NCBI RefSeq assembly: GCF_013256625.1
Contig: NZ_CP053908.1
Location: forward strand, 1,488,001 to 1,552,000
Length of the DNA stretch: 64,000 nt
Reading direction: 5' to 3'
Origin: Hymenobacter sp. BRD128
GTDB lineage: Bacteria; Bacteroidota; Bacteroidia; Cytophagales; Hymenobacteraceae
Made by a program: the position numbers and the translations under genes. The notes under the pieces were generated by a model that searched no databases, was not told the DNA's origin, and saw only the letters and a list, made by a program, of their open reading frames with translations. Below are positions 8,176 to 16,533 of this stretch, piece after piece. Every line of letters starts with the position of its first letter. The first letter of the stretch is position 1.

Positions 8176-9513
8176 TTAGGCTGCGGGCGCGGCGCCTGGC
8201 CGCTGGCCTTTGGCGGGCACGGACTGAGGGGTGGCCGCCGGCCGGCCAAGCGCCCCCAGCTGCCGCCCGGCCAGCCGCCCAAACAGCGGGTGCTTGGCCT
8301 GCCCAATTTGCTGCGAGCTATAAATACCCGAGTGGCCCGAAAATAGGTACGCTACCACGCAGGCCAGCGCCAGGTACACACCCGCCCCGGTCCCAAACAG
8401 CTCCAGCCCCATCAGCAGGCAGGCTAGCGGCGTGTTGGCCGCGCCCGCAAACACCCCCACGAAGCCCATGCCCGCCAGCAGCGCCACCGGCAGCGGCAGC
8501 ACGCCCGCCAGCGCCGAGCCCAGCGCGGCCCCGATGAAAAACAGCGGCGTCACCTCGCCGCCCTTGAAGCCGGCGCCCAGCGTGAGGGCCGTGAGGAGCA
8601 GCTTTAGAGCAAAATTCTGGGCCCCCAGCTGGTGCTGAAATGCCTCCACAATCACCGGCACCCCTAGCCCGGCGTAGCGCTGGGTGCCCAGCGCCCACAT
8701 GGCTCCGGCCACCAGCACGCCCCCCACCACCGGCCGCAGTGGCGGGTAGGCTATCCGGCTAAAAAGCTTGCTGATAGCGTGCGTGAGCGTGGCGAAGCTG
8801 CGCGCCGCCAGCCCAAACAGCGCGCCCGCCAGCAACGCCGACCCTAGCCCGGCGGCCGTGAGCGGCAGCGCCGCCAGGGTAGGGTAGTGGGTGTGGCCCA
8901 CGCCCCAGGCGCGCGTTACCACGTCGGCCAGCACGGCCGCCAGGAAGCTGGGCAAAATGGCCTCGTAGCGCACGCCGCCCAGCAAATACACTTCCAGCCC
9001 AAACACCGCTCCCGCCAGCGGCGTCCCAAACACCGACGCAAACCCCGCGCTCATGCCCGCAATGAGCAGCAGCCGGCGCTCGCGCCGGGGCAGCCAGCGG
9101 GCTAGCTGGTCGGCCAGCGCGCCGCCCATTTGCACGGCCGTGCCCTCGCGCCCGGCCGAGCCGCCCAGCAGGTGCGTGAGCAGCGTGCTGCCCAGCACCA
9201 GCGGCACCAGCCGCAGCGGAATAGTAGCGCCAGGGGCATGTATCTCGTCGAGAATGAGGTTGTTGCCTTTCACTACGCGGTTGCCGAAGTAGTGGTAGGC
9301 CAGCCCGATGAGCAGGCCACCCAGCGGCAGCAAGGCCAGGGCCCAGGGGTGCGCCGTACGCCAGGCCGTCACCCAATCGAGGCTAGCCAGAAAGCCGGCC
9401 GAGGCCGTGCCAGCGAGCGCACCCACCAGGCTAGCCAGCAGCAGCCAGCGCAGGGTGAAACTAGCTGTCGGCGTGAAAGCGCGGAGATAGCTGCTAAAAG
9501 GAGAAGTAACCAC
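8176..9513 (-). CDS. CLC-type fluoride/proton antiporter (CLC-F clade)
   Basis: This membrane protein of about 445 residues belongs to the CLC family of chloride channels and antiporters. The motifs differ from classical chloride CLCs and fit the fluoride-specific clade: GNNLILDEIH, then GGSAGREGTAVQMGG (GREGT in place of GREGP), and GMSAGFASVFGTPLAGAVFGLE. Later helices carry GGEVTPLFFIGAALGSAL and AANTPLACLLMGLELFG. It should expel fluoride using the proton gradient. The assignment is strongly supported by a fluoride riboswitch in its leader (9569-9627), 55 bases before the start codon. The C-terminal tail (about 405-445) is Pro/Ala-rich and not conserved. The gene stands alone, transcribed divergently from the SPFH gene. 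I rate the fluoride specificity high because protein motifs and RNA agree independently. Confidence 0.92.
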   Translation of the reverse strand: MVTSPFSSYLRAFTPTASFTLRWLLLASLVGALAGTASAGFLASLDWVTAWRTAHPWALALLPLGGLLIGLAYHYFGNRVVKGNNLILDEIHAPGATIPLRLVPLVLGSTLLTHLLGGSAGREGTAVQMGGALADQLARWLPRRERRLLLIAGMSAGFASVFGTPLAGAVFGLEVYLLGGVRYEAILPSFLAAVLADVVTRAWGVGHTHYPTLAALPLTAAGLGSALLAGALFGLAARSFATLTHAISKLFSRIAYPPLRPVVGGVLVAGAMWALGTQRYAGLGVPVIVEAFQHQLGAQNFALKLLLTALTLGAGFKGGEVTPLFFIGAALGSALAGVLPLPVALLAGMGFVGVFAGAANTPLACLLMGLELFGTGAGVYLALACVVAYLFSGHSGIYSSQQIGQAKHPLFGRLAGRQLGALGRPAATPQSVPAKGQRPGAAPAA

Positions 9514-9568
9514 GGTGCGAAATAACAGGACGATTCGTCCGGCGCGGCCCTACTGGCCGGTCGGTAGC

Positions 9569-9627
9569 GTAGGAATCATCAGCGCGGCGCTGGGGGCGCC
9601 GGCGGTTCGCGGTGGCAATCCATCACC
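9569..9627 (-). promoter_or_regulatory. Fluoride riboswitch (crcB RNA motif)
   Basis: Read on the minus strand, this leader has the three conserved blocks of the crcB/fluoride aptamer in order: GGTGATGG, then CCACCGCGAACCGCC, and after a GC-rich hairpin GCTGATGATTCCTAC. It ends 55 bases before the CLC-F start codon, so it probably turns on translation or transcription of the exporter when fluoride binds. A small hairpin (9528-9540) between aptamer and gene could be part of the switch, but it has no T-run and is not a standard terminator. Confidence 0.93.
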
Positions 9628-9779
9628 GGTAATGACGCAAAAGTAAGGCAGTAGGCCTACCAACTGGGCCCTGAGGTGTAATGCGCGCCCGGCGCTGGCG
9701 AGATACCATTCCAAACGTGCAGCCAGGCGCTTACCTTGCCGCACGTTCGGCTATCCATCTCACCTTTTTGCCCGCTGCC

Positions 9780-14426: not shown

Positions 14427-14475
14427 TGCGGCAGTCGCTAGCCCTGGCCGGCGGCGCCTTCTTTTTTCTTTGTCA

Positions 14476-15612
14476 ATGATTCCTTTTATGAAACCAGCCC
14501 TTGTTGCCGTGGCCCTGCTCGGCCTCACCAATGCCTGCCAGAATGCCAGCGCCGCCGAGGGCTACGAGATAACGGGCCAGCTGCGCAACGTGGCGGCCGG
14601 CACTACCCTGCACCTTTCGGAGCTGACCAGCAGCCAGTTTGTGGAGCGCGGCACGGCCAAGACCGATGCCCAGGGCAAATTTACCTTTAAGGGTTCGTTG
14701 CCCGTGACGGCGGCGGTCTATCAGCTCAAGATTGACGAGCCTAACCAGGTCTTGCTGGTGCTCGATAATAAGACGCACCTCACGCTCTCGGGCGATGCCA
14801 AGAGCTTGGCAAACAGCTATCTGGTAAAAGGCTCGAAGGATTCGGAAGTCATTCAGCAGCTGACGCGCACCATGAACGCCAGCCGCGGCCAGATGCAGCG
14901 CCTGGGCCAGCGCTACAACGCCGCCGGCCAGGCCGGCCGCACCGATTCGCTGCCCATCATCGAGCAGCAGTACAATGTGCTGGCTCACGCCACGGCCAGC
15001 CGGGCCAAGGCGGTGATTCGGCGCAACGCCTCGTCGGTGGCGGCGGGCTTTGCTGCGCTCAGCTTCGTGGACCCCAACGAGGACTTTGCCTTCGCCGACT
15101 CCATCGCCAGCATTCAGCGCAAGGCGCAGCCGGCTTCGCCCTTCACCCAGGCTTTGACCGAGCGCCTGGAACCGCTGCGCGCCACGGCCATCGGCGCCAC
15201 GGCCCCCGAAATCAACCTGGCTAGCCCCGATGGCAAGCCGGTTTCGCTGAAAAGCCTGCGTGGCAAGTACGTGCTAGTCGATTTTTGGGCGAGCTGGTGC
15301 GGCCCTTGCCGCCAGGAAAACCCCAACGTAGTGAAGGCTTATAACCAGTTTAAGGACAAGGGCAAAGGTTTTACGATATACAGCGTGTCGCTCGATGACG
15401 ACAAGGCCCGCTGGACCCAGGCCATCGCCGCCGACGGCCTGGCCTGGCCCAACCACGTCTCGGACCTCAAAAAGTGGAACAACGCCGCCGCCGCCGCCTA
15501 CGGCGTGCAGTCCATCCCGGCCTCGTTCCTGCTCGACCCGAGCGGCAAAATCATCGGCAAAAACCTGCGCGGCCCGGCGCTGGAAGCCAAGCTGGTGGAG
15601 GTGCTGAAGTAG
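14476..15612 (+). CDS. TlpA-like thioredoxin-fold lipoprotein with N-terminal DUF4369-type domain
   Basis: This is a periplasmic thiol-disulfide oxidoreductase of the Bacteroidota type. The N-terminus carries a lipoprotein signal with lipobox LTNAC, so the protein is membrane-anchored. ATG codons at 14476 and 14488 both fit, and I kept the first. Residues about 28-110 form a beta-rich DUF4369-like domain (ITGQLRNVAAGTTLHLSEL). A helical linker follows (about 125-220), then an AhpC/TSA-thioredoxin domain (about 235-378) with the active site WASWCGPCRQE and the cis-Pro loop SIPASFLLD. The WCGPC motif suggests a reductase role, for instance in cytochrome c maturation or general disulfide repair, but no partner gene is adjacent. 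A strong terminator follows 19 bp after the stop codon. Confidence 0.88.
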   Translation: MIPFMKPALVAVALLGLTNACQNASAAEGYEITGQLRNVAAGTTLHLSELTSSQFVERGTAKTDAQGKFTFKGSLPVTAAVYQLKIDEPNQVLLVLDNKTHLTLSGDAKSLANSYLVKGSKDSEVIQQLTRTMNASRGQMQRLGQRYNAAGQAGRTDSLPIIEQQYNVLAHATASRAKAVIRRNASSVAAGFAALSFVDPNEDFAFADSIASIQRKAQPASPFTQALTERLEPLRATAIGATAPEINLASPDGKPVSLKSLRGKYVLVDFWASWCGPCRQENPNVVKAYNQFKDKGKGFTIYSVSLDDDKARWTQAIAADGLAWPNHVSDLKKWNNAAAAAYGVQSIPASFLLDPSGKIIGKNLRGPALEAKLVEVLK

Positions 15613-15631: not shown

Positions 15632-15668
15632 AAAAAAGGCCTTTCTACGCGCAGAAAGGCCTTTTTTT
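15632..15668. terminator. Bidirectional rho-independent terminator
   Basis: A perfect 15-bp stem (15632-15646 with 15653-15667) around a 6-base loop, with A-rich and T-rich flanks. It serves the thioredoxin-like gene (+) and, read the other way, ends the minus-strand transcript containing the tRNA-like gene 13 bp away. Confidence 0.9.
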
Positions 15669-15680
15669 GAATATGCCAGA

Positions 15681-15774
15681 ACTGAGGGTAGGACTCGAAC
15701 CTACGGAGGAACCGCTACATAGCTTCCATCGGCGTGCTTGTGCACGACGGCAATCACCGCTCTGCCACCTCAGT
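15681..15774 (-). tRNA. tRNA-like gene with long variable arm and non-canonical anticodon arm (identity unassigned)
   Basis: On the minus strand the 94 bases have a perfect 7-bp acceptor stem (15768-15774 with 15681-15687), a normal D-arm (GCAG, loop with GG, TTGC) and a perfect T-arm (15688-15704, GTAGG-TTCGAGT-CCTAC). A long variable arm also folds, so the shape is that of type II tRNAs (Ser, Leu or Tyr). The anticodon arm is wrong: in its place is a 5-bp hairpin with a 4-base loop (15733-15746), and no 7-base loop with U33 can be drawn. The base after the acceptor is U, and CCA is not encoded. It could be a decayed tRNA, a tRNA with an insertion, or a specialised tRNA-like RNA. It follows the gene at 15790-16533 by 15 bp and ends in a terminator. 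Confidence 0.55.
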
Positions 15775-15789
15775 GACAGGGCGAAGTTA

Positions 15790-16533
15790 TTAGGCCAAAA
15801 ACATGCGCTGCAAGCCGCCCCAGAGGCGTTTTTTGAGGCTCACGTCGTACTCTATCATTTCGACCTCGGCGCCGGCCAGGTAGGCGAGGCCCACGGCTGG
15901 GAACTGCACGGGCTCGTAAATCTGGGTGGTGCGCACGGCCACGTCGAGCAGGTTTTTGCCGAAAGCCAGGATGTGCGTGGCGGCAATCTCCTTGCGTAAG
16001 TTTTGCAAGGCTACCGGGTACGTGCCTTCCACATTCACGAGCACCACGTCGGCCATTACCAGCCTGATGGCTTGGAGCAGCTTGTTGAGAAACACGTTGC
16101 GCGGCAGCTTCTTAAACTGCTCGGGCGGCAGGCGCACCAAAATAACCACCCCCTGCGCGTTTTCGCCCAGGGTGCTGAAGGTGGTGAGTAAATAGGGTGC
16201 GACGGGCGGCGTTGCCGCTGGCGCCGGGCTAGCCGGGGCTGGCGCCGCTACGGGCGGCGGAGAAACTAACTGAGCAGTGGGCAGGCTAGCGGGCGCACTA
16301 GGCGGCGCCGCCGCCGGCGGGGGTAGCTGGCCGCTGGCAGCCGGCGCGGGCAAAGCCGGCCCCGCTGCGGCGGGCGCCGCTGCGGCCACTGCCAGGGCTA
16401 CTGGCACGGCCCCGGGTGCCGGAGCCACTTCCGCAGCGGGGCGCTCTTCGGCCTCGGCGGGCATGTAAAGCGTGACGCCAGTGTAGAAGTTTTGCAGGAA
16501 GGCCAGGGTGCCACTTTGCTCGTCCTCAGTCAT
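15790..16533 (-). CDS. Uncharacterised protein with Pro/Ala-rich linker and conserved C-terminal domain
   Basis: I do not recognise this gene firmly. It encodes 247 residues. A short N-terminal segment (about 1-25, LAFLQNFYTGVTLYMP) is followed by a long disordered linker of alternating Ala and Pro (about 30-115) and a folded C-terminal domain (about 118-247). That domain contains GVVILVRLPPEQFKKLPRNV, ATHILAFGKNLLDV and a basic-hydrophobic end, SLKKRLWGGLQRMF. The pattern of an FG-turn and a terminal basic helix faintly recalls the HolD (DNA polymerase III psi) fold, but this is a guess. It lies 12 bp after the thioesterase gene on the same strand and is probably co-transcribed with it. There is no signal peptide, so it should be cytoplasmic. 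Confidence 0.6.
   Translation of the reverse strand: MTEDEQSGTLAFLQNFYTGVTLYMPAEAEERPAAEVAPAPGAVPVALAVAAAAPAAAGPALPAPAASGQLPPPAAAPPSAPASLPTAQLVSPPPVAAPAPASPAPAATPPVAPYLLTTFSTLGENAQGVVILVRLPPEQFKKLPRNVFLNKLLQAIRLVMADVVLVNVEGTYPVALQNLRKEIAATHILAFGKNLLDVAVRTTQIYEPVQFPAVGLAYLAGAEVEMIEYDVSLKKRLWGGLQRMFLA

Follow-up and report, generated by a model that had tools for sequence, protein, structure and literature searches.

A tRNA-shaped gene of 95 nt was identified on the minus strand, from 15774 to 15680, of the window, the stretch of 64,000 nucleotides of the Hymenobacter sp. BRD128 genome that was analysed. It is likely, and well supported, that this element does no decoding. The explanation that is tentatively preferred, though it falls short of being probable, is that the element is a non-decoding derivative of tRNA-Ser kept as an accessory RNA, a tRNA-shaped decoy that would act off the ribosome towards a tRNA-Ser-binding protein. 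The first-pass annotation had proposed a tRNA whose anticodon arm is altered or else an RNA of tRNA shape that serves another role. This is strengthened by six other genomes in which the altered arm is retained at the same site and the acceptor, T and hairpin helices show compensating changes.

The seven carriers are the window genome, G005 (Hymenobacter sp. BRD67), G029, G043 (Hymenobacter sp. H14-R3), G104 (H. artigasi), G107 (H. coccineus) and G136 (H. siberiensis). The G029 and H. siberiensis rows of the alignment are identical, leaving six distinct rows.

Structure of the element

Table 1. Coordinates of the element, its parts and its neighbours in the window.
Feature	Position	Strand	Basis
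tRNA-like RNA gene, putatively tRNA-Ser-derived, discriminator U included	15680..15774	-	ARAGORN, Rfam RF00005, covariance model
Acceptor stem, 5' strand, ACUGAGG	15768..15774	-	sequence; changes on both sides in 3 of 7 pairs, six rows
Acceptor stem, 3' strand, CCUCAGU	15681..15687	-	sequence; pair comparison
D arm, GCA...UGC, conserved GG in loop	15750..15765	-	alignment, RNAalifold
Hairpin instead of anticodon arm, CGUGC-ACAA-GCACG, from 29-42, tetraloop 34-37	15733..15746	-	sequence, alignment
Long variable arm, GGAAGC...AGCGGUUCC, 20 nt	15708..15727	-	alignment
T arm, 5-bp stem and UUCGAGU loop	15688..15704	-	sequence; both-side changes in 2 of 5 pairs
Upstream co-directional gene encoding 247 aa, without a Pfam family; its stop lies 15 nt ahead of the RNA	15790..16533	-	
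Convergent gene, DUF4369 and thioredoxin-like (TlpA-type), syntenic anchor	14470..15612	+	
Terminator-like hairpin flanked by A- and T-runs, separating the RNA from the convergent gene	15632..15667	.	sequence

The acceptor, D, T and long variable arms had been described as well formed in the first-pass annotation, which gave no strand; all of them are read on the minus strand (Table 1). The acceptor helix is indeed perfect over 7 bp in the window copy and the T stem over 5 bp, as had been claimed, and across the six rows 90.5% and 90.0% of the cells of these stems are paired, with breaks in some relatives. The D stem has 5 bp (9-26 to 13-22) in the RNAalifold consensus. The variable arm is of the class II type of tRNA-Ser, with six pairs kept in 97.2% of cells.

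The tetraloop hairpin reported in place of the anticodon arm is confirmed. The arm has the normal length of 17 nt (27-43), with its pairing shifted by one base and extending into the loop, so that the pairs are 29-42, 30-41, 31-40, 32-39 and 33-38 around four bases at 34-37. The canonical stem, 27-31/39-43, is paired in 46.7% of cells over the six distinct rows, and its pairs 29-41 and 31-39 are formed in none of them; this stem is not formable. A normal 7-base anticodon loop is not predicted, in keeping with the first reading; the loop is of four bases. The tetraloop is ACAA in the window, GCAA in H14-R3 and H. coccineus, UUCA in BRD67, GUAA in G029 and H. siberiensis, and GUGA in H. artigasi, which makes GNRA loops in four of the six distinct rows (GCAA twice, GUAA, GUGA). 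In each of the six rows bases 33 and 38 are able to pair, so the usual U-turn loop is unavailable. The absence of U33 noted earlier holds for the window and for five of the six rows, where base 33 is C, and fails in H14-R3, where a U33 is present, though pairable with A38. The element therefore does not have the combination characteristic of an elongator tRNA, an anticodon stem of 5 bp closing a 7-nt loop with U33.

ARAGORN reports the element as the sole tRNA in the window, at 15679-15774, recognising a tRNA-like gene to which no isotype is assigned ('tRNA-???'). The same label is given in H14-R3, BRD67 and H. artigasi; there is no call in G029 or H. siberiensis, and the H. coccineus copy is called Cys, with the anticodon at position 38. 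When searched locally with permissive filters, the Rfam tRNA model RF00005 gives 34.4 bits against a gathering score of 29; the window-wide Rfam scan at the gathering threshold does not list the element. Two other identities were rejected. tRNA-Sec has a UCA anticodon and an 8-bp acceptor stem, whereas the element is without an anticodon loop for UCA and its acceptor in the window is 7 bp, and ARAGORN, which seeks tmRNA too, reported none in the window.

The genome has 43 other tRNAs, scoring 43.7 to 75.5 bits, all 43 typed by ARAGORN and together covering all 20 amino acids. A need for the element in decoding can thus be rejected, since normal tRNAs exist for each amino acid. Among the 42 distinct own tRNAs, tRNA-Ser(UGA) scores best against eight of eight elements, of which two are distant, and its lead is in some cases small. 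It resembles the element in a near-identical D-arm sequence, the long variable arm and the elbow bases, and differs in having a normal 7-nt loop, a G discriminator and near invariance across the same genomes. Every row of the element has U or C at the discriminator position, whereas the own tRNA-Ser genes have G and tRNA-Ser(UGA) of G029, H. siberiensis and H. artigasi has A; this difference speaks against charging by SerRS. Among the carriers, the tRNA-Ser(UGA) discriminator itself (L133, L134, L135) is A in these three genomes and G in the other four.

Conservation and folding

The RNAalifold consensus is a cloverleaf that includes the tetraloop hairpin. Over the 28 pairs compared and the six distinct rows, 93.5% of cells are paired; slid controls gave 35-53%. 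Changes on both sides are found in six pairs, of which the acceptor has three, the T stem two and the hairpin one. In shuffles that ignore relatedness, and for a structure drawn from the same sequences as were tested, four of five measures, the covariation score among these, were reached by none of 500, and the fifth, further pair types, by 479 of 500. The question raised in the first-pass annotation, whether the hairpin itself is kept by compensating changes, receives a partial answer: a double change is seen at one pair only (33-38), a wobble change occurs once, and two of the six distinct rows have a U-C mismatch at 31-40, so that compensation in this helix is modest.

Identity to the window copy is 0.75-0.85 for the element; at fourfold sites it is 0.59-0.69 in the thioredoxin gene and 0.47-0.75 in the upstream gene, where the value of 0.75 comes from 44 sites only. 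By comparison, variation in the genuine tRNA-Ser(UGA) genes of these genomes is confined to 8 of 86 columns (six rows, the identical H. siberiensis row being dropped). The element is therefore constrained, although far less than a decoding tRNA, and some of this conservation could be a by-product of recent exchange among lineages. Invariant columns make up 12 of 16 in the D arm, 12 of 16 in the hairpin stem, 6 of 7 in the T loop and 15 of 25 in the variable arm, compared with 5 of 14 in the acceptor and 4 of 10 in the T stem. This core of D arm, hairpin stem, T loop and much of the variable arm, kept above the acceptor and T stems, is what a protein recognising the tRNA body would touch.

The minimum-energy fold is a cloverleaf in none of the six rows; the own tRNA-Ser(UGA) does fold to a cloverleaf in the same program. 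The gap between the RNAalifold structure and the best fold is 1.3 kcal/mol in the window copy and 18.4 kcal/mol in G029 and H. siberiensis, and the mean pair probability of the hairpin stem ranges from 0.01 (H. artigasi) up to 0.85. The copy shared by G029 and H. siberiensis looks damaged: 24 of the 28 pairs are kept, with mismatches in the acceptor, T stem and hairpin, and the cloverleaf is much less stable than the best fold (-14.3 or -19.3 vs -37.7 kcal/mol). Mismatches in the acceptor, D or T stem are also found in BRD67, H14-R3 and H. coccineus, and the acceptor end of the BRD67 copy is imperfect, with G-G at 1-72. Folding, damage and discriminator together favour one of two readings: that the RNA can do without charging, or that the element is slowly declining in some of the carriers.

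Distribution and genomic site

A covariance model built from four sequences, all four of which are counted among the carriers, identified the element in seven of 120 Hymenobacter genomes, that is in six of the 119 others, so that absence from all relatives, the outcome named at the outset as fatal to the first reading, is false. The scores are 92-116 bits; in the same search genuine tRNA-Ser reaches about 43 bits, against at least 92 for the element. A DNA search of 99 genomes gave three relatives and one false match, and among 291 genomes sampled from the order three carriers were recovered, each of them a Hymenobacter. No match to the window element was found in the phages, plasmids and viral contigs searched.

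Several weaker matches were rejected. The G037 match of 27 bp in the first DNA search lies in sequence without a tRNA fold, and a Spirochaeta match in the genome-contig pattern scan has no tRNA features beyond the matched stretch. Matches at about 33-45 bits, among those listed, were taken as ordinary tRNA-Ser (two and seven were read), those in G147 and G148 are Thr tRNAs by ARAGORN, and that in G280 (47.1 bits, order search) is an ordinary tRNA-Ser(GGA). Of the genus-search matches at about 27 bits, the one in G052 was read (L091 3950-4100, minus strand); it consists of two tandem tRNA genes of ordinary size whose anticodon loops are abnormal, left untyped by ARAGORN.

Class II tRNA-like genes with tetraloops at the anticodon place are also present in two further genomes, G057 (L086 4052-4138, minus strand, CUUG) and G109 (L087 4030-4123, minus strand, UUCG). 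Their 5' parts agree at 23 of 33 positions, their neighbouring genes differ, and ARAGORN types the G057 gene as Leu. In a joint alignment they keep 23 and 19 of the 28 pairs respectively, and a model that includes them matches nine of 120 genomes, these two by construction. Both genes may be homologous to the element. The G057 element was not found in plasmids, nor the G057/G109 pattern in viral contigs, and the common pattern of the two, allowing up to 2 mismatches, is absent from 395 genomes of the class. A 25-base match of the G109 element in the BRD128 genome has no tRNA features and was rejected.

In all seven carriers the element is located beside the terminator of the convergent thioredoxin gene, and by eye the terminator-like hairpin follows it in seven of seven. 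The Pfam families of the neighbours, taken from eight reading frames, are of household type, including GatB, thioredoxin, thioesterase and PCMT. The thioredoxin gene itself is present in 117 of the 120 genomes. Reading its 30 best-matching loci by eye showed the element in four and its absence from 26; the remaining three carriers were examined separately. Six upstream regions were scanned for a promoter, and a full TANNTTTG motif near the start is found in H14-R3 only.

In a tree of 33 thioredoxin proteins, from the 30 loci and the three remaining carriers, the carriers fall at five places and at least five changes are required. They are hardly clustered, since 43 of 500 label shuffles on this host tree were as low as observed. 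Relatives with 92-93% identical thioredoxin are without the element, whereas hosts at 63-65% have it. Repeated loss, or exchange of the locus by recombination, would explain this scattered presence. In several genomes without the element (L093, L097, L100, L103) the slot downstream of the thioredoxin gene holds long inverted repeats, by eye, so the slot seems to accept insertions.

Possible roles of the RNA

The decoy role is proposed by analogy with phage tRNAs, whose altered anticodon loops evade tRNA-cleaving defences according to the available part of the source (PMC10264068). Going by the same partial text, they are like the element in having a changed anticodon arm that could escape anticodon nucleases; they differ in carrying loop mutations, whereas in the element the 7-nt loop is gone, and the element is chromosomal, with no match in the phage and viral collections searched. 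The RNA would be transcribed with the upstream gene or from a weak promoter of its own. Its ends would be cut by RNase P and the 3' tRNA endonuclease, as the retained acceptor/T helix and elbow bases suggest. A candidate partner recognising tRNA-Ser, either a tRNA-cleaving nuclease or seryl-tRNA synthetase, would then bind the RNA, which would be neither cut at an anticodon loop nor used on the ribosome. An accessory function, for example a protective one, would fit the patchy distribution. A bolder proposal, speculative and rather unlikely, is a Hymenobacter family of non-decoding tRNA-Ser mimics with the arm rebuilt as a stable tetraloop hairpin, to which tRNA-cleaving enzymes would bind without cutting; it would be a chromosomal RNA antidote, repeatedly lost or exchanged at one locus, and the G109 (UUCG) and G057 (CUUG) genes would share its design.

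The main rival, a real possibility though on balance a doubtful one, is that a former tRNA-Ser gene is decaying slowly at one site, with the hairpin arm a relic and the RNA without function. The scattered presence with at least five changes on the host tree is consistent with decay, as are the mismatches in G029 and H. siberiensis (acceptor, hairpin and T stem) and in BRD67, H14-R3 and H. coccineus, a rate of change faster than that of real tRNA-Ser, a cloverleaf that is not the best fold and the lack of a clear promoter in most rows. Decay accounts poorly for the both-side changes in six pairs, for an identity above that of fourfold sites and for the same non-tRNA tetraloop hairpin in seven of seven genomes, with GNRA in four of the six distinct loops. 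The first-pass argument against simple decay therefore gains from the shared site and the paired changes in relatives, but slow decay is still to be reckoned with.

It is improbable that the element acts in cis as part of a 3'-UTR, as a tRNA fold that ends the upstream mRNA, is cut by the tRNA-processing enzymes and so sets or protects the 3' end. The position would suit this, since the element starts 15 nt past a co-directional stop and ends before a terminator-like hairpin, and the gene order is as in the window in BRD67, G029, H. siberiensis, H. artigasi and H. coccineus. However, in H14-R3 a different gene is directly upstream: two other genes lie between the usual upstream gene (ending at L049:273) and the element, which is retained, and this favours a role in trans. 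In addition, by eye, 21 of the 26 loci that lack the element have the same upstream gene at the slot.

Still less can be said for a charged, non-decoding aminoacyl-tRNA that donates serine, or an amino acid set by U73 or C73, to an enzyme outside translation, which is quite improbable. The likeness to tRNA-Ser, the long variable arm and the mostly kept acceptor helix and T loop agree with it, and SerRS is not known to read the anticodon. Against it are the U or C discriminator, unlike that of tRNA-Ser in the same genomes, the imperfect acceptor end in BRD67 and the neighbourhood, where general GatB is the only tie to aminoacyl-tRNA by Pfam among eight frames. It is hardly credible that the element is a tRNA still able to decode through its unusually small loop, for example in frameshifting or suppression: ARAGORN offers a 4-nt 'anticodon' in the window, BRD67 and H. 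artigasi and a Cys anticodon in H. coccineus, but there are five loop sequences over six rows, the loop size is 4, and base 33 is C in five of the six and pairable with 38 in all.

Few bacterial tRNA-shaped RNAs with functions outside translation are known. If scattered lineages do retain the arm in its tetraloop form, the element would offer a clean system for a role of the tRNA body with decoding excluded. Further such genes may be overlooked in genomes, since ARAGORN leaves them untyped or misses them. A literature search at the level of partial texts gave no description of the element, and the Hymenobacter papers with tRNA terms (PMC9262613, PMC10783764) concern other matters in the parts available. 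The closest described RNA found is tRNA-Other, a pseudo-tRNA of Bacillus cereus that, in the accessible portion of its description, is poorly aminoacylated, is not associated with polysomes and has a role outside translation (PMC3399842). Both are tRNA-shaped, but by the same partial account tRNA-Other keeps an anticodon, that of Trp, and lies beside a pathogenicity island, whereas the element lacks an anticodon loop, resembles tRNA-Ser most closely and has household-type neighbours. With regard to a tRNA fold without decoding, as in tRNA-Other, a normal loop is excluded by the sequence of the element itself.

Elsewhere in the window a Fluoride riboswitch (9563-9636, minus strand, Rfam 40.7 bits) was identified just upstream of a CLC-family gene (8176-9513). 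The association of this riboswitch with a voltage-gated chloride channel (CLC) gene is a familiar pairing for fluoride export.
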